DNA of 64,000 nt, taken from positions 1,178,001-1,242,000 of the forward strand of contig JAKULF010000005.1 of the NCBI GenBank assembly GCA_022661535.1, given 5' to 3'. Below the pieces are notes generated by a model. That model searched no databases. It saw only the letters and a program-made list of their open reading frames with translations, and was not told the origin of the DNA. The stretch is from Eutypa lata. Lineage: Eukaryota > Ascomycota > Sordariomycetes > Xylariales > Diatrypaceae. The stretch's first letter is position 1, and each line of letters begins with the position of its first letter. The position numbers were made by a program, and so were the translations under genes. Shown here one piece after another: positions 5,839 through 54,606 of the stretch.

Positions 5839-7333
5839 TGTTGATTTAAGGGAACCTTGAAAGGCAAGCAGGGCATTGGAAAACTGAGGTGGCTGTTTTC
5901 GACAGGGTGCGGGTAGGCCACGACAGCTGAAAATATAAGGATTGCGCGAATAGGCACCCCTGGTCTGTATCCCTTGGAGGAAGAGGAAGAGTAGTGACTT
6001 TATTACGGATCGCGCAATATAATACGACCCAAAGATCTCCCACATATAGCCGGAAGTCTAGTCGATCATTTGGTACGTTTCGATTAGATCCGCCTTTCTT
6101 AGATTCTTCGTGCAGTGTTTTTCATACCGTCATAAATATATATCAGACGCCACTCTCCCAAGCCTACATAGGTGGATGAACCGGCCCATATGGGAAATAC
6201 ATGCGATTAGCCTGTAATAAGGTAGTAACGAAGGGAAACCGACATGGCTCTAGTCTTGGCCAATCTATGAAGTATATGCAAGTTGGCAAAACCAAGCCTA
6301 ATAACACTGGGGGTTTCAATTACCAACTGCATATAAGCTTCTACTCTCCATCTGTTGCTGATATCTATTGGTCATCTGGACCTTTCAGCCATTTCATTCG
6401 TAGCTATCCCAAGGGGCTATTTAGGGTGGGGTAGACAGGGTACTTATCTATCACCTTGACCACTAGACCCAACACCAAGTTGTCACCCACTGTGTTATAA
6501 CTCCAAGCGCCCCTCAACCAACCAACTGACGCTGGTTATCATATACGAATCTAAGATGTACTAAGATATACTTCATCCTAGGGGTAATAGGCGAGAAGGC
6601 TACTAGCTATCCATAGCAAATAATGCGGAATAAGCTACTCCTTAAACAGGTACAAACTCTACAAACATCAGAATTGCTGACCCCTTAATCTAACAAACCT
6701 TACCTTTGTCCCCCCTGTTTCAGGGCTATAGCTGGAGAATAAGACTGCATTGAAGCCTTGCGACTCGAATAGATCCCTTCAACCTATGAGAGTAGTGAAG
6801 CCTCTTTGTAAAGCTATATACTTCTTGATTGAGGCGCTCATGTCAATATCCAGGACCCGACCTCCAGGTAATCTATACCCGCAAACCTCAAGATTAGACC
6901 TGAGGATGCCAGCAACCTAAGGAAGGGAGAATGCACTGGGTTTAGTATAGCTACAGATGTTGTATGACCTACTCGGTGTTTAGTGTAATATACTCATTGA
7001 TTGATGCTCTGATGCGTCCCGCTCCATTTCTGCCTTTCCTGTCTATCCCTTTTATTTTCCTAGTTCACTCTCCCGTATTGTATTGCAACCTCTCTTTATC
7101 ATGCCTCTTATGCGGACTAGAGATATTCCTTACCAAAGAAAACCCATATGCTTTCTCTCGCAGAGATGCTTTCAATAAATGGTCAGTTAGAGATGCCCTC
7201 TATTTCCCCATAGGGCTCTCCAAGACCATAAGACTATAAACTCAGTATTCCATGATAGCTTTGGCAATACTGTGCTCTTGGTTGGTTAGGCAGTGCCTAG
7301 ACGTGATGGCAAGATGCCTTTGAGATACAGGCA
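5839..7333. other. intergenic, possible decayed coding remnant
   Basis: No intact gene. On the minus strand around 6930-6750 there is a short protein-like stretch preceded by an acceptor-like CTTAG (VAGILRSNLEVCGYR, then GGRVLDIDMS) that soon meets stops. It could be a decayed exon, but I do not recognise its family. The rest is AT-rich. Confidence 0.35.
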
Positions 7334-9003
7334 TCAGTATGCCGGATTTTGGCCATGCCATTGGTTACCTTGATAGTCCTGACTCTGTTGGTGGCTCTGG
7401 GATTGGTGGTACTGATCCGACGGAGGATAACTCTGATGAGGCGGTTGATACTGGTCAGGTCGATACTCTTGATGCGGCTGGTGCTGGTCTTGCTGGTATC
7501 CGTACTGCGGAGAAGGCATAAACTGATTGCTATCTCCGAGCGGCGCGCTGGGCTTCGGCGCTCCCAGGCTCACCCCCTCGTTCCCAATGTCATCCGGCAC
7601 GGTGATCTTCACCTTGGGCAAGTACCTCTGGACCTTCTGCTCGACCATGTTCTGCACGAAAACCCAGCTCTCGCGCTCGAACTTGCGGTGGCCCCCATTC
7701 ACGACGCCCAGGATGCTCTCGCGCAGCATCTCCTGCACCTTTTGCACGAGGCCGCGGATCTTGCCGACCAGCTTGGTCTTGATATCATCCCGGAACCCGC
7801 GGTCTGCCTGGGATCCGGCGGCGTCGCGCTCGAGCTGCGAGTCGAAGGGGTTGCCGCCGAGGATCTTCTCAAGAGGACCCTGCAGTTGGTCGGGCAGCAG
7901 CTCGAATAGCTGCTTCTCGATACCGCCTAGCTCCTTGCGGAACTCCAGCCGAACTTCCCTGTGGACTCTAGCTAGACCCGTACTCAGCTTTTCGCTGATG
8001 ACCTTGGAGAAGCCGCCACCGCCACTGCCCCCTTCTCCCTCGCCGCCATCGCGATCGCGGTCATCGAGGCCTCTCGAAGACTCCTCGCCTCGATCCTTCT
8101 TATGTCCGAACAGGCCGCCGAGCCCCTTCACTAGATCCTTGACGTGGTCCTCGATCTCGCCCTTGGCACCGTCGCCGAGGTCGCGGGTGCTCGTGTTGCC
8201 GCGGAGCCAGCGTTTGATGTGGCTCAGCGCAATCTTTTTTTTTTGTGAAAAAAACAAGTTAGCATCTAAATTTTTCATCATATCCTGTAAAAGATTCTAT
8301 AGCTAGTAGAACGAGAAAAGATATTAACTTTTTTTTTTATGGTACTTACACCGGTAAACCGCTCGGCGATGGGTGCGTGCTGCTCGCGCAGCTTCGCGCC
8401 GACCTTGTCCTTGATCTCGGGACTGATACGACGCGCCGTGTCCTCGGGACTGCGCGCTACATCCTTCACGTTGCTGCTGAGCACCCCGAGAAGACCGTCA
8501 AGCTCGAACTTCTGGCCGCCTGGTCCTTGGTTGCTGTTGTTGTTATCTAGATGGTCTTGGACGGCATTGACGGCGGCGGAGAGAAACCCCCGGACTCGCT
8601 GGGAGGAGTCGGAGTGGTCCTCTCCAAGGGACCGGGTGTCACCAGAACCAGCTCGGCCTTCAGTCAGGCTGAAAATGTCGCGCAGGTCGTCGCCTGTCTC
8701 ATCGGCAATCTTGCTGAAGCTGCCTGTGAGGTTGGCGATCTCGTTGGCGAAAGGTAGAGACTGGCCGCCGTAAGCATTGGGGATGGCGTCATCCAGGCTC
8801 CTTGACGCCCCCGGAGAGGTAGCCCCATCACGATTGAAAAGGGATCGGAAGGCCTCGATAACTCGTGCCTCCAAGACATCGATGGTCTTCTGCTGGAAAA
8901 CCTCCAGCTCTGTGGTAATGCGGGGTTGGATCTGCGGGGCAAGTGAGTCGACGTATTCGTCAACCTTCTTCATCAGCACCTCGGGGATCCCGTGGGAAGA
9001 CAT
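7334..9003 (-). CDS. conserved-looking fungal protein of unknown function (helical, Q/Y/P-rich tail)
   Basis: Two exons (9003-8350, 8233-7334) encode 517 aa. The N-terminal half is charged and helix-prone (start MSSHGIPEVLMKKVDEYVDS), with repeated amphipathic segments. A middle linker rich in Asp, Arg and Gly (about 270-300) is followed by a second helical block (SKVISEKLSTGLARVHREV). The last 80 residues are low-complexity Gln, Tyr, Pro and His. No signal peptide or membrane segment is seen. I do not recognise a named domain; the helical blocks suggest a lipid- or membrane-surface-associated or scaffold-like protein, but that is inference. The start is the first Met and is followed by no competing Met until mid-helix. 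The single intron (8234-8349) is homologous to an intron in the gene at 45438-46551. Confidence 0.8.
8234..8349 (-). mobile_element. introner-like intron, copy 1
   Basis: A 116-bp phase-0 intron beginning GTAAGTAC, with branch point GCTAACTT and, unusually, a poly-A run before the AAG acceptor. Along its length it matches the 106-bp intron at 46132-46237: shared blocks on the coding strand are GTAAGTAC, AGTTAATATC, TTTCTCGTTCT, ATAGAA, CTAACTTGTTTT and TCAC in the same order and spacing. Near-terminal inverted repeats (AAAAGTTA / TAACTTGTTTT) would pair the 5' end with the branch-point region. Confidence 0.8.
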
Positions 9004-9955
9004 GGCTGCGGTTTTTTAAAATGATCAATAAATAGAACGAAAAAAAGTAAGCTAGTACGGAAGGAGTTTATGATTGAAGTGAAAACGGAAGTTTATTGTA
9101 TCGGGCTGTTTTGGGTGCTCTTTTTGGGGGATGGTGGGCGCGCGGGGGGGCCTGGAAGGGGGTGTCAAATAAAAATCAAACAAAAATGTTAATATGTATA
9201 TATCACGCCGTATAGATCGAGAGCAAGTGGCAACCTGGAATCAAGTTCATGCCAATGATAGGACCTCTGGAATGTAATCCGTTTATTTTTCTACTTCATA
9301 TTATTACGTACACCCCTAGGTGCGGACATCATCATTGGATGTAAAATTTGACAAATAAGATCACATTCTGTCATCATCATAATAAAGCAAAGCTGTTTTG
9401 TTTTATTTAACTGCTAAGCCCATGCTGTGCCCATAATCTATTTTTGCGTATTATGCACTATCTACCTCTAGCTACGTAGTAATTGTCCCTATAAGTTAGC
9501 CGACGTGACCAATCATAACCATCATACAAGGCTTAGTCTTGACCCGGGACACTAGCGCCCCCGAAGCTCCGTGGGGCGCCTTGGCTGAATATCCCGAAGC
9601 GTGATGCCCGAGGCCGATTTTTCGGCCCCGATCCGACATCGGAATCCTATTCAAGTACCAAATAGGGAAAGCGTTGGCTAGGATTCAGCATTGGCGATGG
9701 CGCGAATCACGATGCTCAGCTGAAAGTTAGGGGGCTCCCTTTTGGTCTTATTATAATAAGTATAAGCCCCGGTTTTGCCAGCCAGGCACCCACGACATCG
9801 ATCTCTGTCTTGTTTAGCTCCGGCTGTCCGAGCACTCTGTTCTCTTATAACGGCTCGCCGTCTTCGTTATAATACCTTCGTGTTTCCTCGTGAATTCCAG
9901 TTCACATGTTCTTCTCTTCTACAGTTATTCCAGCGGCCAAAACGCACACTTCAAG
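9004..9955. promoter_or_regulatory. divergent promoter region, hypothetical gene / AMID gene
   Basis: The spacer between two divergently transcribed genes. The 5' part is AT-rich; 9530-9640 is GC-rich with a GGCCGA-TTTT-TCGGCC inverted repeat (9612-9627) and CCGA/TCGG half sites of the sort bound by zinc-cluster regulators. A perfect 14-bp palindrome CTTATTATAATAAG (9747-9760) overlaps a TATA-like element followed by TATAAGCC and a CT-rich leader ahead of the ATG at 9956. Binding factors are unknown. Confidence 0.45.
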
Positions 9956-20943: not shown

Positions 20944-22275
20944 ACGAAAGTCGGTGTAGGCAATGAAGGAAAAACAAAAAAGGGGTGGTTATGACTGGGA
21001 AAAGGCATTCTCGGCGTTGGGGAAATGGATACTGGCCAAGCATTTTGCTTGATACTCTTTGAGACCCAATATATCACAACATCAGCTATTGACGAAGTGC
21101 CATTTTAACCCTAGTCCTGAATTTAATCAGCGTGTATATGCTGTGTCACCTAATCCTTCTCTGAGAGCTTAACGTTGTAGTATTTGTGAGATGTTACACG
21201 GGAAATTGTGCCTGGCCGAGCCTCCAGTGGTTTATGGGTGTACTTGTGGCATGTGCTATTCAACTTTGTTCCTAAGGTTCAATTCTAGTCTGTAAACCTT
21301 AATATCGTCTAACTTACGGGCATGAACCGCATTTGAGGCCTCTACTATGTAATATGACATTTGTCTATTCTGTGTATTCCATTAGCATCCGATTTTCCGG
21401 CTTGATACCATCAAAATGTGCCGTAGTTGCCGTCTGGCCACCTACCTAAGCTATATTCAATTCCTCGACTCTACGAACCACGATGTGCGTGTCTAGTATC
21501 CGTAGCGAATTGGGGGTCGCGATAACAATATATGGTCCCGAAGTGGGAACTCGGCAGGGATAGAACCCGCCTGCAGGGGAGTCTATTTCCTTAGCTGGAA
21601 CCCCCCCCCCCCCCCCTGACGCGGCAAACCCCCCATTTATTTCTGATCCAAAATCAAGCTTGGCTGGCTGTTTTGACTTGTGAAAATACCCCCAAAGATT
21701 CACTTACGTACATACTTCGTACTAGAGAAGAGATTTGCTACGATCGCTACCTACGACACGGACATCAACAGGGGAAAGAAAGAAATATTTTTATTCGAGG
21801 GGAGTAAGAAAAGAAAAAGAGGGAAGGTCATCCCTATACGTATAGGGGTTATATTATCTATTGGTTGTTTACTTGAGACAAAAGAAGGTGTCACACAGCG
21901 CAGCAGCACCAGTAACAACAAAAACAACAGCAACCGCACGACGACAACGACAACGACGACGACAACAACCGGCAGCGCCCCTCCAGATGGAAGGATCCTA
22001 ATGTTGCGCCCATTGATCCTGTCGCCCCGATTGCATCTCATCCTCATCTGATGCTTGAAAAAGATTTTGGTGTAACTTTTTTTGGATAGGAAGATATACA
22101 AGAAAAAAGAAAGGGGGAAAAAGGAAAAAAAAGAACAAACACTGAGGAGCCGTTACCAAACCCCCCCACTTTCGACGGGTAGGTTGGTTGGGAAGTTTTG
22201 CGTTTGGAAGTTCAAATTTTTTATTATTATTAAAACATACATTAAGCCAACCAGCAGAGCCGGGCCAGGCAGGCT
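20944..22275. other. intergenic; homopolymer C tract and microsatellites
   Basis: Holds the 3' region of RPS22 and the promoter of the GT90 gene. It contains an 18-base run of C (21601-21618), a CAACGACGACGACAAC-type trinucleotide stretch (about 21900-21975) and an A/G-rich leader (22085-22140). No gene supported. Confidence 0.5.
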
Positions 22276-24320
22276 ATGGGAGTGAGGATGCGGCCGCGCC
22301 AGCTCCTCGCCATGGGCGGTATCGTCTTCCTCGTCTTGTGCGCCGTCACGCTACTGAAGCTCTCGCCGACGGGCACGAACCTCGCGGATTTCCGAAACTC
22401 GGGCTACGGCGGCAGTAGTAATATTAATAACAAAAATGGTGGTAGCAGTGGTAGTAGTAGTGGCGACCCGAACAGAGAGAAAGGAGCCCCACCACCACCC
22501 CCCTTCGAGCCCTTCAACCCGTCCCCGAAGCCCGCGCCCCCGGGGTCCCACCCCATCTGGCACCTGATCACGGACGCGGAGCGCGAGCTCGAGGCCGTCA
22601 AGGGCCGGCAGTCGCGGACGCTCGACGAGGCCGTGGCCGAGTACCGGCGGCGGCACCTGGGGCTGAACCCGCCGCCCAACTTCGACAAGTGGTACGAGTT
22701 CGCGCGCGCCAAGGGCGTGCAGCTCATCGACGAGTTCGACACGGTGATGGAGTCGCTGGCGCCGTTCTGGGGGCTCGAGCCGGCCACGGTCCGCGCGCGC
22801 GCCAAGGAGGCCCTGGGGTTCCCCGACAACGCCCTCCTGGGCGTGCAGATCCGCGGCGGCCGGATCACCCACCTCGACGGCGGCGGCGAGTGGCAGCAGC
22901 AGGCCACCGCCGGCATGATGGGCAAGTTCCTCAGCTGGCTGCCCGACATGGACCTCTGCTTCAACCTGCACGACGAGCCGCGCGTCGTCGTGCCCCACGA
23001 CGACCTGTCGCGGCTGGTGAAGCGCGCCCGCGAGGTCAACATGGCGGCCGCGGCCAGCTACGCCGCCGACGGGGCGAAGCCCCCGAGCAACGCGTTCTCG
23101 AGGGCGCCCGACCTGAACGACGGCTCCCGCTTCGACGAGACCAAGCTGACGCGGTTCAACGTGTTCGCGCACCAGCCGACGTGGACGCACTCGCGGCTCT
23201 CGTGCCCGCCGGAGAGCCCCGCGCGCGCGCTCGAGGAGTCCGAGCGCCGGGACGACGTGTCGAAGTACGGGCTCGGCGAGCTGGGGTTCGTCTACAACGT
23301 GACGGCGCTGTCGGACGTGTGCAACTCGCCCTCGCTGTCGTCGACGTTCGGGTTCTTCGACCGGCCCAACGCCTACAACCTCGTGCTCGACCTGTTCCCC
23401 ATCTTCTCGCAGTCCAAGATCTCCTCGTACTCGGACATCCTGTACCCGTCCCCCTGGTACTGGTACGAGAAGGTCAGCTACGACGAGAAGAAGGACCGCG
23501 CCTGGGCCCAGAAGGACGACGCCCTCTACTGGCGGGGGTCGACCACGGGGGGGTTCAGCCGCGCGGGCGGGTGGCGGCGCCAGCACCGGCAGCGGTTCGT
23601 GCAGAAGATGAACGCCGTCGACAACGCGACGATCCTGGTGAACGTGGGGTCGGGGTCGGAGGAGCAGTGGGAGCCGCGGTCGGTGCCGCGGGGCGACTAC
23701 CGCGACCTGGTGGACGTGTACTTCTCGGGGGTGGGGCAGTGCGACCCGGGGGACTGCGCGGCGCAGTCGGAGTTCTTCGAGGTCAAGGGCCACGCGGAGC
23801 AGCAGGACGCCTGGCAGTACAAGTACCTGCTGGACCTGGACGGGAACGCGTTCAGCGGGCGGTTCTACGCCTTCCTGCGCAGCCGGAGCCTCGTCTACAA
23901 GCTCGCCCTCTTCCGCGAGTGGCACCGCGAGTGGCTGCGCCCCTGGGCCCACTACATCCCCCTGAGCCTGCAGGGCGACGACTGGCTCGAGTCCGTCCGC
24001 TTCTTCCAGAGCGAGGGGAGCCTCGGCCGCAAGGAGGCCGAGCGCCTCGCGAACCAGCAGCGCGATTGGGCCGACAAGGTCCTGAGGCACGAGGATATGG
24101 AGGTTTGGTTCTTTAGGTTGCTCTTAGAGTATGTGTTTTCTTTCTTTCTTTCTTTCTTGTGTTACTACTTCTTATTTTGCTTGTGCGATCTTGCTGCTGA
24201 CACATAGTGTGACAAAATAGATACGGCCGAGTCATCGATGACGACCGCCACATTATTGGATACTCGCCCGCATCCGCTAAGTCGGAGCCTGCGAAGGCCC
24301 CTGTGGAGGGGGCGTCATGA
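22276..24320 (+). CDS. GT90 (CAP10-type) glycosyltransferase, type II membrane protein
   Basis: Two exons (22276-24128, 24221-24320) encode 650 aa. A short basic cytosolic N-terminus and one signal anchor (LLAMGGIVFLVLCAVTLL, about 10-27) precede a Gly/Ser/Pro-rich stem and a large lumenal domain. The C-terminal part has the CAP10 pattern: YWRGSTTGG (about 417-425), DAWQYKYLLDLDGNAFSGRF (about 511-530), and a closing FFRLLLEYGRVIDDDR restored by splicing (GA|GTATGT ... AATAG|A). GT90 proteins transfer xylose or related sugars to glycans in the Golgi. The intron carries a (TTTC)n stretch. The coding region is extremely GC-rich with G/C at nearly all third positions, unlike its flanks, which creates long meaningless frames on both strands. 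Confidence 0.9.
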
Positions 24321-45437: not shown

Positions 45438-46551
45438 CTAGAGAAGAAAGGCAACAACCAGAGAGAGCAGAGCGAACTTGAAGAGGTGGCCGGCAACGAC
45501 ATGGGCACCAGAGCCAGTTGGCGTAGCGGTCGGGTCTGAGGACGCGTCCGTCGGCGTGGCGGTGGCAGACGCAAAGTCAGCCGGTCCCGGCGGGGTGGTG
45601 GGAGACTCGACTCCAGGCGGGCAGTGCCAGTGATCATGGTGAGGGGAGCAAGTCGCCGAGGCCGAGGTTTCGCCGGCAAGATCCTCTGGCGAAGGCGGAG
45701 TGGTGGGCGCCTCAACTCCGGGGGGGCAGTGCCAGTGATCTACATGCGGCGAACATGTTGCTGCTGCTGCCTCTGTCGTTGTTGCCGTTGCTTCCGCAGC
45801 AGTTGCCTTGCTTAAGTCCTCTGGGGAAGGGGGGGTTGTGGGCGCTTCAAGTCCAGGAGGGCAGTGCCAATGGTCTACATGCGGCGAACAAGTAGCCGTA
45901 ATAGTGGGCCCAGCATTATCATCGCCATGTGCTATTCATCATATATTAGCGCTATTCTAATCTCTTAGATCTACTATGACTAGAAAGAGTGCTAGTAGAA
46001 ACAAGAATTGGACTGGGGAAGAGGTAGGAGTGTAGGATTACTTACCATGATCACCTTGAGGTTCAGAGCCGGAACTGACTGGGGAGGGCATCAGGGCTGA
46101 AGCCGTCGGCTCCGGGTCGGGGCAATGCGTGCTAGTTAGTGAAAACAAGTTAGTTTTTAATTTTTTATATCACATCTTGTACAAGGTTCTATGGCAGAAC
46201 GAGAAAGGTAGGATATTAACTTGTTTTTAGTACTTACACGACAACTGTCTCGCTGGAAAAGCTGTAGCCGGCGCTGGTCAGAGCATCGGGGTTGTAGACG
46301 GCATAGGCCGTGAAGCTTCCACCAGGGTAGGTCATGAGGGAGGAGTAGAAAATGACTTTGCCGGTGATGTGTGGGGTCGAGTACACACTGTTCAGGGAGT
46401 TCGTGAAGCTGTCACGGTCCGACACAGTCGTTCCTGCCAGCATAGTGCGAGTCTCCGTGACAGTGTCGCAGACGTCGCCGTCGCCCGCAGCGAACCATGC
46501 CTGCTGGAACAGCAGCAGGAAGGCGACCAGACAGTAAGTGAATGGCGCCAT
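45438..46551 (-). CDS. GPI-type surface protein with three Cys/His repeats
   Basis: Three exons (46551-46238, 46131-46046, 45931-45438) encode 297 aa. A signal peptide (LVAFLLLFQQAWFAAG) leads to an N-terminal domain with few Cys (about 23-110), then a Pro/Ser/Thr-rich region carrying three copies of CSPHxDHWHCPPGxE followed by APTTPPSPEDL or a close variant. Spacing is about 52 and 41 residues. The C-terminus is a short hydrophobic tail (FALLSLVVAFLL) after GSGA, a likely GPI signal. Each repeat has two Cys and three His, suited to metal binding (Zn or Cu), which is an inference. Similar CxxHxDHWHC words occur in other fungal surface proteins as far as I recall, with no assigned role. Intron 1 is the second introner-like copy. 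Confidence 0.85.
45500..45900 (-). repeat. coding tandem repeat, Cys/His module x3
   Basis: Three repeats share nucleotide blocks such as GGGCAGTGCCA on the plus strand, at about 45619, 45724 and 45859, each coding HWHCPPG. Repeats 1 and 2 (by protein order) are closest, including the flanking EAPTTPPSPEDL; the third is a little diverged. Confidence 0.8.
46132..46237 (-). mobile_element. introner-like intron, copy 2
   Basis: A 106-bp phase-2 intron beginning GTAAGTAC and ending CTAACTAG. It matches the intron at 8234-8349 from donor to branch point in block order and spacing. A perfect 11-bp inverted repeat (plus strand AAAACAAGTTA at 46142-46152 and TAACTTGTTTT at 46218-46228) would bring donor and branch point together. 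Both copies follow an exon ending in GT, so both junctions read GTGTAAGTAC. Confidence 0.8.
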
Positions 46552-51407: not shown

Positions 51408-52823
51408 ATGTCGGACAGCAAGTCGGACAGCAAGGTTAAATGGGGCGTGCCAAACCCGGACCTGACCGAGACCTTGAACACATATACTGTAACCGAACAA
51501 TTGACCATTCTGCTCCAACAAAACCAAGAGAACGCCAGAAGCTTAAATAAGCGCATCGAAAATGGGATCCGAGCCCCGTTGGAAGCACTCAGAGCTCAGG
51601 TGGAAGAACACGCCGACCAAACCGACGAGACCATCGACGGCTTGCGCGACGAGGTCAAGGAGAGCGCGCACAACTACTTCGTGGGCTATTCCGAGGACAT
51701 GTGGCGATTGAAGGAAGAGCTGGAGGACGTGAACAGGAGTCATAGGCGTACCCTCGCGGCTCTGGAAGCAGTGACCGAGGACAGGCGAAAGGAGGAGCAC
51801 GAGAACCTGATGTTCAAGCGCCAGATGCGCCGGCAACTGGACGAGCTCCGACGTCTTGTTGCCTCCAGTCCCCGACCGTGGTTCCCGCAGTTCTCGAGAC
51901 TCCCGCCGGAGCTCCGCCGGCTGGTGTGGCACTTCGCCGTGCCGACGCGGTTGTATTGCGAGGACAAGACGTGGAAAGGCGTCTCGTTCGTTCTCTCGGC
52001 CCCCGCGATCGCGCACGTCTGCCGCGAGTCGCGGGCCGTGGCTCTGAGGTTGGGCCGCTTCTGGAAGATGGGGCCGGGCCGGAACCCCGGGTGGAGCTGG
52101 TTCAACCCGGACCGCGATGCTTTTCTCCTACGACTCGATAACAACTACGCCTATCCCTCCAGGCTTATCGAGGAAGTCACAGTGGAGCCCGATGAAGAGT
52201 GGATGCAGTTTGAGTTCAGAGAGCACGCCGGAAACGCCTTGCTCGATAACCTGCTTATGTTCAAATGGGGCGTAAGGGATATATTTCCGCGGCTTCATAC
52301 CATCAACGTGTTGATGGTAAAGCCCACCCTGGTAGACAAGTCTTGGGACCCTTCTGTCGTCTCCAAGCTCTTCCGCGGGGAGTCCGTCGTGGTCGTGGAC
52401 CTGGAGGACGAGGCGTCGGTTCAGCGGGTCTTGAATATCCTGGAGCCGGATACCTGCCATGCCGGATTCGCGGCAGAGTATAACTTGGGCACGGCCACAT
52501 CAGTTGGTCGGGAATATTTGGGAACTCAAACCCCCGCATGTGATCTTATAACCAGCCGTTGGTTTGGGCATTCCGGATTTTGGAAGGGGGCGCGTCAGGG
52601 ACTGCTGGAAAGATACGTGTTCAACAAGGCATCCTGGACCCCCCTCACGCGAGAGTACGCCCAGCTCTGGGACTTCGATATGAACCCGAACCTGGAGATC
52701 CCGTGGGTTGAGCAGACGGTCAATTCGCTTCGCATTCGGCCGGTCCATGTCTTTGCGTTGCTCGATGGTCATCCCCGGGAGTGTCTGCGGAGCACCCCGA
52801 CTCCAGACCCGGAGAGTCCGTAA
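51408..52823 (+). CDS. 2EXR-domain protein with N-terminal coiled coil
   Basis: An intronless 471-aa frame. Residues about 30-155 are a charged heptad-like coiled coil (VEEHADQTDETIDGLRDEV; LMFKRQMRRQLDELRRLV). Then comes the 2EXR motif: FPQFSRLPPELRRLVWHFA (about 164-182) and IAHVCRESRAVALR, which defines a large fungal family of unknown role. The rest has Trp-rich segments (NPGWSWFNPDRDAF) and no recognised catalytic site. No signal peptide. Only 154 bp separate its stop from that of the convergent GH64 gene, so the 3' ends probably overlap. Confidence 0.85.
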   Translation: MSDSKSDSKVKWGVPNPDLTETLNTYTVTEQLTILLQQNQENARSLNKRIENGIRAPLEALRAQVEEHADQTDETIDGLRDEVKESAHNYFVGYSEDMWRLKEELEDVNRSHRRTLAALEAVTEDRRKEEHENLMFKRQMRRQLDELRRLVASSPRPWFPQFSRLPPELRRLVWHFAVPTRLYCEDKTWKGVSFVLSAPAIAHVCRESRAVALRLGRFWKMGPGRNPGWSWFNPDRDAFLLRLDNNYAYPSRLIEEVTVEPDEEWMQFEFREHAGNALLDNLLMFKWGVRDIFPRLHTINVLMVKPTLVDKSWDPSVVSKLFRGESVVVVDLEDEASVQRVLNILEPDTCHAGFAAEYNLGTATSVGREYLGTQTPACDLITSRWFGHSGFWKGARQGLLERYVFNKASWTPLTREYAQLWDFDMNPNLEIPWVEQTVNSLRIRPVHVFALLDGHPRECLRSTPTPDPESP

Positions 52824-52977
52824 ATCCGGTTTGATTCTCACATTCGCTTCAGGATGGGTTGAAGCACTCTGTACTGTATTTATATTAATATTAATAATGG
52901 GGTTTTCATCGTCTGTTAATAATTATGGTCAAAATAGAGTATTTTTGTTATTAATAAAGTGTATCATACTACGCACT

Positions 52978-54606
52978 CTACTGTGTGAATCTATACTTGA
53001 GCTCACGAAGCTTTCCCTTAAAGCCGCCCTCTCTCGCCGGCTCAACCGACTGTGTTGTAGCAGCAGCAGTAGCTCCGCGAGCCAGACCCGAAGTATCTCC
53101 ACCCGCGCCCGCGTGCAAACCTCCGACAGTAACAGTGAACAACACCGGATCCCCGGCATTCACCTTCCCGGACTGGTCCTCGCCCCCACCAGGCTGCACA
53201 TCATCATACGCGAACGCGTAGCCGCGACCATCCACAACAGCGACCTCGTGCACGAGGCGAGCATAGTGATTCGTAGTCACCACCGCCGCCGCCGCCGCCG
53301 CCGCCCCCTTTCCATCTCCACCACCCTTATACCGGTAGAACGTGCCCGGACCCGACGGATGCCTCCCCGTCTCCAGCAGCGCCGACCGCGCAAACGCCGC
53401 CGCGAGACGCGGTATGATGGCGTTGCGCAGCGGCGACGGCCCCGTCGTGAACGGCCCGCTGTTGCACCCCAGGATGTCGGCCGTGTTCGGCTTGCGGAAC
53501 GTCTCCCCGCCGATCACGAACGCGCCCGTCGACGCGTCGGCCGTGCCCGATACGACGCCGGGCCCCGCTTGCGTGTCGATGTGCAGCGTGGCGCCGTTGC
53601 CGCCTTGGTCAGCCGGCGCGTAGTGCCGCACCACGGCGTCGACGTACGCCTCGAAGTAGCCGGCGAAGCGGGCTCTGACCGCATCGCCGTGGGTGGGGCT
53701 GAGGACGCGGAGGACCTTCTTCTCGTTTCCTCCTCCCCCTCCTTTCTCGTAAACGACGAGCTTATCCCAAGGCCAGCCGTCGCTCGCGGCTTGCTCGCGC
53801 AGGCCCTCCGCGAGGCGGTCCGCGCCCTCGGGCGAGGCCCCCGCGACGCGCTGGACGGCGCCGCTGGCGCAGGAGAGAGCCAGGCCGATGGGGATCCGCG
53901 GCACGAAGTCCACGAAGCTCACGTTCGCGTACAGCTGCGCGCCGTCGAGCGTGAACTCGGCGAACCCGAAGTCCACGTCCCGGTTCGGATCGCTCGGGTT
54001 CAGCACGCTGGGCTCGACGAGCGCTGCCGAGTCGCCTCCCGCCGGGTTGAGGAGGAAGGTGAGCTTTTTCGGACCCCGGGATATCCACTGTGAGTGAGGG
54101 GGTGTTAGCGGTTGTTTTGGTTGGTTAGTCAGTCAGTCAGTTAGTCAGTGAGTGAGTGAGCGAGCGAGATGTTTTGTTGGCAAATATGTATGTGTGGACA
54201 TAAGAATGTAGCGCGGGTATAGGTGCTAGCAATAGATTTAGATTTGTATTTGTGATGAAAAAGTCCCTGCTTGAAACATAAATTGTGTCGTAGGGTTGAG
54301 GTTTAAATTCAAAGATAAGGAAGGGGATAAGGGGGAGAAATGGAGAAAATGGCTTACGACTCGGCCCCCGGCTATCTGTGGGATCGTCACCGTGACGGTG
54401 TTCCCCGGGGCGCCGAGCGCGATGGCACAGTCCTCGGCGAGCGGGGTCCCGATGCGCGGCGGGCTGCTCGGGAAGTACAGGGTCCTACCGTCGGATCTGA
54501 GGACGCAGCGCCGCCCGCCCTGCTGGATGGCGAGACCCGTGATGTACGCGAACACCTGGTCCGTGTCGCTGTCGTTGTGTAGGGCGATTTGGAGGGAGTT
54601 GGGCAT
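52978..54606 (-). CDS. GH64 beta-1,3-glucanase-like protein
   Basis: Two exons (54606-54358, 54087-52978) encode 452 aa. The thaumatin-like N-terminal part starts MPNSLQIALHNDSDTDQVFA and includes LAIQQGGRRCVL. After the junction WISRGPKKLTFLLNP and ALVEPSVLNPSDPN are typical of GH64, as are FGFAEFTL, VDFVPRIPIGLAL and the later TADILGCNSGPF. GH64 enzymes cut beta-1,3-glucan to short oligomers. No signal peptide is seen, so it may be cytosolic or exported by another route. The 270-bp intron has a decayed 4-bp repeat (TTAGTCAGTCAGTCAG, then GTGAGTGAGTGAG). The exon 2 coding strand is very GC-rich, with a low-complexity Ala run. Confidence 0.88.

Follow-up and report, generated by a model that had tools for sequence, protein, structure and literature searches.

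How new spliceosomal introns originate is an old question, and few organisms have been caught in the middle of gaining them. Eutypa lata, the species considered here, is a member of the Diatrypaceae, in the order Xylariales. Introner-like elements of the Dothideomycetes were reportedly described by van der Burgt in 2012. In the text of a later account (Collemare 2015, PMC4457414), these elements are spliceosomal introns that multiply in unrelated genes and degenerate with age. In the main text of Gozashti et al. (2022, PMC9860276), ascomycete introner families appear as outliers without inverted repeats. The closest described systems come from the Xylariales. As reported in the text of Fekete et al. 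(2021, PMC8469720), the CO27-5/EC38 introns are single canonical introns, with an example of 93 nt; CO27-5 has 10 copies, said to be derived from stwintrons by internal deletion, and a central TTTCTAGAAA palindrome. Sister stwintrons of the [D1,2] type with NTIRE-10 elements are described for Hypoxylaceae and Xylariaceae in the text of Fekete et al. (2025, PMC12403724). For the spread of the sister stwintrons, Fekete and co-workers proposed capture at double-strand breaks.

In a 64-kb stretch of E. lata DNA (the window), a sequence-only reading had pointed out two introns as homologous copies of an introner-like element. Both were found where it had placed them, on the minus strand, with the following exons and inverted repeat arms:

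8350..9003, minus strand: exon 1 of the copy 1 host, a predicted 517-aa protein of unknown function
8234..8349, minus strand: introner copy 1, a predicted intron of 116 nt, GTAAGTAC ... A-run and AG, phase 0
8320..8338, minus strand: 5' arm of the copy 1 inverted repeat, pairing seen in the predicted fold
8248..8263, minus strand: 3' arm of the copy 1 inverted repeat, with the predicted branch point CTAAC at 8258-8262
7337..8233, minus strand: exon 2 of the copy 1 host, followed by the stop codon
46238..46551, minus strand: exon 1 of the copy 2 host, a predicted protein with a hydrophobic N-terminus, start codon chosen by eye
46132..46237, minus strand: introner copy 2, a predicted intron of 106 nt, GTAAGTAC ... 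CTAACTAG, phase 2
46212..46228, minus strand: 5' arm of the copy 2 inverted repeat, pairing seen in the predicted fold
46142..46154, minus strand: 3' arm of the copy 2 inverted repeat, with the predicted branch point CTAAC at 46149-46153
46046..46131, minus strand: exon 2 of the copy 2 host in a predicted gene model, ending by eye at the next, ordinary GTAAGT donor

The homology of the two introns runs from end to end, as had been claimed. Their global alignment scored 108, against 22.1 ± 7.9 and a highest value of 52.5 for 500 dinucleotide shuffles, with 87 of 121 columns identical and 20 columns gapped. The best joined reading frames gave the phases proposed for the pair, 0 for copy 1 and 2 for copy 2, and the joined frame of copy 1 is open for 666 nt upstream and 897 nt downstream. 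In this predicted gene reading, the introner is the sole intron of the copy 1 host gene. The host protein of copy 1 is conserved in the Xylariales and beyond, and UCREL1_1792 from E. lata UCREL1 matches it at 99% identity with 86% coverage; all 14 homologues selected for alignment, from at least 120 listed, cross the junction without a gap. A Pfam search of the copy 2 host protein gave no match, and neither did an Rfam search of window positions 7000-9200 at E up to 1. An inverted repeat joining the donor side to the branch-point side had also been noted; it is present in both copies, with a CTAAC in each 3' arm that is, by its motif, the putative branch point, and across the family the symmetry spans the whole unit. 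The fold of copy 1 was no better than that of its shuffles (z -0.42), and that of copy 2 had z -1.93. Identity to the family consensus is 69% for copy 1 and 90% for copy 2, and by its sequence copy 1 is an old, diverged copy.

From this pair alone a multiplying introner family had been predicted, and a search of the full genome, an assembly of 54,524,940 bases in 29 contigs, bore this out by finding the family at 101 places. Blastn with copy 2 as query gave 83 candidates, of which 40 were scored, all 40 being significant. Pattern scans detected 34 places for the 5' end, 58 for the middle (a 31-nt central block outside the splice sites, with at most 3 mismatches) and 63 for the 3' end, with 0 in each reversed control, and a fourth, gapped pattern matched 9 places (control 0). 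The union of the searches comprised 102 clusters, reduced to the 101 places once one split copy had been merged; none of the matches listed was a third copy within the window. Lincoln-Petersen capture-recapture gave 107-131 copies, which is probably low because old copies evade every pattern. Removal of L051, which has no clear acceptor, and of L007, L109 and L110, which belong to a segmental duplication, left 97 distinct copies; the site statistics further exclude L057, L091, L098, L105 and L107 and are based on 92. Two extra units adjoin listed ones, namely the first introner of the phosphoserine aminotransferase (PSAT) gene and the internal intron of L057. When 99 units were compared, the mean pairwise identity was 69% and the top pair reached 99%. 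The places thus hold many introns that are similar over their whole length and sit between unrelated flanks: among the 97 copies, the only flank match was L092/L093, neighbours in one gene region, the three copies in the segmental duplication having been excluded beforehand. Where Pfam names the hosts, the hosts differ. One pattern scan of viral contigs found no relatives.

The copies were located by sequence alone, and we then examined whether their flanks join into an open reading frame of at least 300 nt, with at least 60 on each side. Such a frame was found in sense for 86 of the 97 copies and in antisense for 44, compared with 34-40% at random window positions; 11 copies were without one in sense and are unassigned rather than demonstrably intergenic. 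In 44 of the 97 copies a clear single frame is present in both flanks, and removal of the intron keeps the frame in 38 of these, whereas retention does so in 14; the same test on the antisense strand gave 19/44, and in 6/44 of the clear cases removal did not restore the frame. Among 20 joined pieces, a Pfam domain spans the junction in 10, and no domain lies over it in the other 10. The PSAT junction in the host of L002 aligns without a gap to the solved phosphoserine aminotransferase 8i28, and the host protein matches the database gene model MGN70_002192 of Eutypa lata with 100% identity and coverage, only the first residue of the query differing. This gene model fits the predicted spliced product. 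The restored frames, the alignments to homologues and the gene models in databases together suggest that the copies are spliced from transcripts.

The length of the 97 copies ranges from 82 to 147 nt, with a median of 105 nt. Their donors are GTAAGT in 75, GTGAGT in 13, GTACGT in 4 and other sequences in 5, and their acceptors are TAG in 38, AAG in 34 and CAG in 25. The acceptor end was taken by rule as the first AG after the branch point (the ends of L078, L090 and L105 were set by hand), and the AG end is therefore not evidence in itself. The commonest distance from the branch-point element to the acceptor is 14 nt (48 of 92 copies), the same as that given for the Xylariaceae stwintrons in the text of PMC12403724. 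In their similar size (93 vs a median of 105 nt), in inverted symmetry over the whole intron and in belonging to the Xylariales, the copies resemble the CO27-5/EC38 introns as the text of PMC8469720 describes them. CO27-5, by the same text, differs in its 10 copies and its TTTCTAGAAA centre; the E. lata family has 101 places, a centre near TAGAACCTTCTA and one stwintron pair. As in the NTIRE-10 stwintrons, inverted elements adjoin donor and acceptor, the 5' element being GUAUAAAAAC in the published set (text of PMC12403724) and GTACTAAAAAC near the terminus in E. lata, a likeness that rests on 10-nt elements compared by eye. Those stwintrons, as that text presents them, are nested twins of two other families, unlike the E. 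lata copies, which are nearly all single. Compared with the Dothideomycetes elements, the family shares multiplication in unrelated genes and degeneration with age, in the terms of PMC4457414. It occurs, however, in a different fungal class. The best reading is an introner family of single introns with a design close to that of the Xylariales sister (stw)introns.

When a consensus made by hand is set against its own reverse complement, 76 of 110 columns agree, and 67 of the 97 copies have a symmetry z-score above 2. In this respect the family departs from the ascomycete families in the main text of PMC9860276, and is like the DNA-transposon introners there in having inverted terminal repeats and in bursts of intron gain. 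In 79/97 copies, the minimum-energy fold pairs 8 or more of the first 30 bases with the last 40. Fold energies had a mean z of -1.6 relative to shuffles (83/97 below 0, 36/97 below -2), only moderately better than the shuffles, and RNA structure is thus weakly supported. From an alignment of 41 copies, RNAalifold predicted no pair shared by them. The pairs of the consensus fold were paired in 88.6% of cells, compared with 38-56% in slid versions, as expected since the structure was derived from the consensus, and with 88.7% for shuffled partners; covariation in the named pairs showed no excess and lay below the shuffled mean, the arms being complementary without compensatory change. A common RNA structure kept after insertion was accordingly dropped as a candidate. 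On our reading, the symmetry belongs to the source sequence, and once a copy has been inserted each arm loses it independently. The inverted repeat may aid recognition or mobility, as the sequence-only reading had suggested.

The insertion sites carry a bias of their own. A pyrimidine stands at -1 in 65 of the 92 introners, where nearby positions give a null of 45.8 ± 4.7; for ordinary introns the figure is 16 of 43 (Fisher P 3e-4 against the introners). These ordinary introns were collected from the same DNA by a motif-and-frame rule that kept 43, with 3 in the reversed control, and include at least one introner, the first of L002. The bias is similar in the halves near to and far from the consensus (33/46 and 32/46). 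By acceptor class it amounts to 30/32 for AAG, 25/36 for TAG and 10/24 for CAG, the difference between AAG and CAG having P 4e-5 in a comparison of classes made after the data were seen. With this bias, the sites depart from the apparently random insertion described for sister (stw)introns. A target preference for A at +1 and T at +2 was also considered and dropped, because ordinary introns share both (+1 A in 18/43, +2 T in 17/43). A search of 48 copies for target-site duplications (k = 1-6 and offset repeats) was negative, suffix/prefix repeats being at chance level. Seamless insertion without such a duplication is also reported for CO27-5/EC38 introns, and absence of the duplication for NTIRE-10 stwintrons, in the texts of PMC8469720 and PMC12403724, respectively. 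Both splice sites lie inside the aligned unit and none is co-opted from the target, the last bases before the AG varying by class. Among the aligned matches to the 5' and 3' ends there was no solo or longer element; apart from L051, without its acceptor, the units have both ends and so give no hint of a longer carrier element.

One copy, L057 (G000 C2:3701530-3701738), is a [D1,2] twin intron made up of two nested units of the family with one G in common. This structure was found in L057 alone, 1 of 97 copies, which is the sole place matched by one junction pattern, and the family as a whole is therefore not classed as stwintrons. Insertion of one unit into the donor of a second can, as L057 suggests, give rise to twin introns. 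A gapped NTIRE pattern for Xylaria-type twin introns gave one AT-rich match in the genome (control 0), which was taken for chance.

Signs of recent gain came from L002 and L004, 99% identical introners in unrelated genes. The PSAT gene that holds L002 (G000 C18) carries two introners of unlike divergence. P0055, a database protein of 240 aa (source tag lgn, 2 contigs, longest 9,710 bases, 5 member sequences), is the exact PSAT translation without introner 2 and with the next ordinary intron read unspliced; with introner 2 present, the same frame stops after 112 residues. P0055 starts 36 nt after introner 1, a position to be expected if introner 1 is present. At the protein level, introner 2 is likely to be a presence/absence polymorphism. 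P0055 could alternatively represent a partly spliced transcript, which is less fitting because of the 9.7-kb contig and the retained next intron. Among 119 other PSAT homologues listed, 31 end exactly at the next conserved intron, all 31 with 100% query coverage, as unspliced genomic frames would, and 5 of these, followed over their whole length, are continuous over both introner positions. These relatives probably lack the PSAT introners. At the L004 site, P0121 (83% identical) and three more homologues are continuous across, with no introner-free E. lata version seen among the homologues. Homologues are thus continuous, at the protein level, across three introner sites. Recent activity of the family is supported by the 99% identical pair and the likely polymorphism, and the family is likely to be still multiplying in E. 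lata.

As to the mechanism, we consider it reasonably probable that a near-palindromic predicted intron of about 105 nt multiplies through an RNA intermediate, entering transcribed coding sequence seamlessly and in sense. An RNA intermediate is indicated by insertion that is mostly sense, genic and seamless, without duplication. The copies would be spliced out, and the near-terminal stem would keep both ends of the excised intron RNA together. This RNA may be joined to another transcript or to an exposed coding strand, either by reverse splicing, possibly at an R-loop, or by capture at a break, and would then be copied into DNA. The arms would presumably be required in the source copy and not after insertion, because they lack compensatory change, and insertion or survival would be favoured directly after a pyrimidine. 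Reverse splicing appears to fit best, and break capture and DNA transposition less well. Transcription-coupled insertion at the DNA level would be expected to leave the same marks. A wider model, which we put forward only tentatively, is that in the Xylariales the palindromic single intron is the mobile unit and twins are by-products of landing in another's donor, with hairpin RNA written after a pyrimidine into transcribed coding sequence, subfamilies differing in site choice, and introns still being added to Eutypa lata.

The resemblance of the window pair might itself have another cause. Donor, branch-point and acceptor motifs are common to introns, and with T-rich tracts they could in principle converge by chance; an alignment score of about twice the highest shuffle, and 58 central-block places with none in the control, refute this and leave it a negligible probability. 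Shared ancestry of the two host genes, or a segmental duplication, has a precedent in the genome in three copy pairs that lie in an inverted, near-identical duplication on contigs 6 and 11. For the window pair this is refuted by the flanks, which apart from L092/L093 show no kinship among the 97 copies including these two, so that it is hardly credible; hosts named by Pfam differ across the family, and those of the pair are unrelated, as the sequence-only reading had held.

Two further accounts concern how the family spreads. A non-autonomous, MITE-like DNA transposon with terminal inverted repeats, spliced incidentally as proposed for algal introners, would explain an inverted symmetry over the whole length, a hallmark of DNA transposons at the termini, as well as precise ends and a site bias at -1. 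It is nevertheless unlikely, given the missing target-site duplication in the 48 copies, the location of both ends within the aligned unit with no co-opted splice site, and the absence of solo or longer elements among the aligned end matches. Moreover, a DNA element would leave many copies in neutral DNA, but few E. lata copies are outside a sense coding frame, and they show no spread outside genes and in both orientations of the kind expected of DNA-transposon introners. In duplication, splice-site origin and coding location the family differs from the DNA-transposon introners as set out in the main text of PMC9860276. Capture of intron RNA or its cDNA during double-strand-break repair, without the spliceosome acting in reverse, agrees with seamless insertion lacking a duplication, and the near-terminal stem, whose fold pairs the ends in most copies, would join the ends. 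Breaks are ubiquitous, however, and intergenic and antisense copies should then be common, yet 86 of the 97 copies have a long frame in sense; nor would random breaks produce the pyrimidine bias. We regard this account as quite improbable, and favour the route through an RNA intermediate with reverse splicing.

The family is large and of a known kind, distinguished by its single introns, by a likely polymorphism within the species and by a site bias that is reportedly missing from the published sets. It shows a large set of single introns with inverted ends and without the footprint of DNA transposition. The terms "Eutypa" and "Diatryp-" do not occur in the main texts of PMC8469720, PMC12403724 and PMC9860276, although the supplements of Gozashti et al. 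may include the species. No literature pairing Diatrypaceae with introners was found, and among the matches listed for Eutypa lata and introns no title indicated an introner paper. For E. lata, the text of PMC9007359 reports 40 sequenced isolates. Presence or absence of copies across isolates could date the gains, provide empty sites and decide between an RNA and a DNA route, and the family could show whether plain or twin introns are the primary mobile form in the Xylariales.

Several minor observations were made along the way. The pairs L005/L007, L084/L109 and L083/L110 are 99.87-100% identical including their flanks. They lie in inverted order over about 330 kb, at G000 C11:3093258-3425724 and C6:1194569-1527437, with all three introners shared, and this repeat would reflect either recent duplication of a segment or duplication in the assembly. 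L051 (G000 C8:5608447) has an intact donor, middle and branch point with no clear AG acceptor nearby, and is possibly a decayed copy. The donor of L107 (GCCGGT) is doubtful. Within the window, the G+C content is 0.65 at 22001-24000 and 0.61 at 52001-54000, compared with 0.43-0.57 in the other 2-kb blocks.
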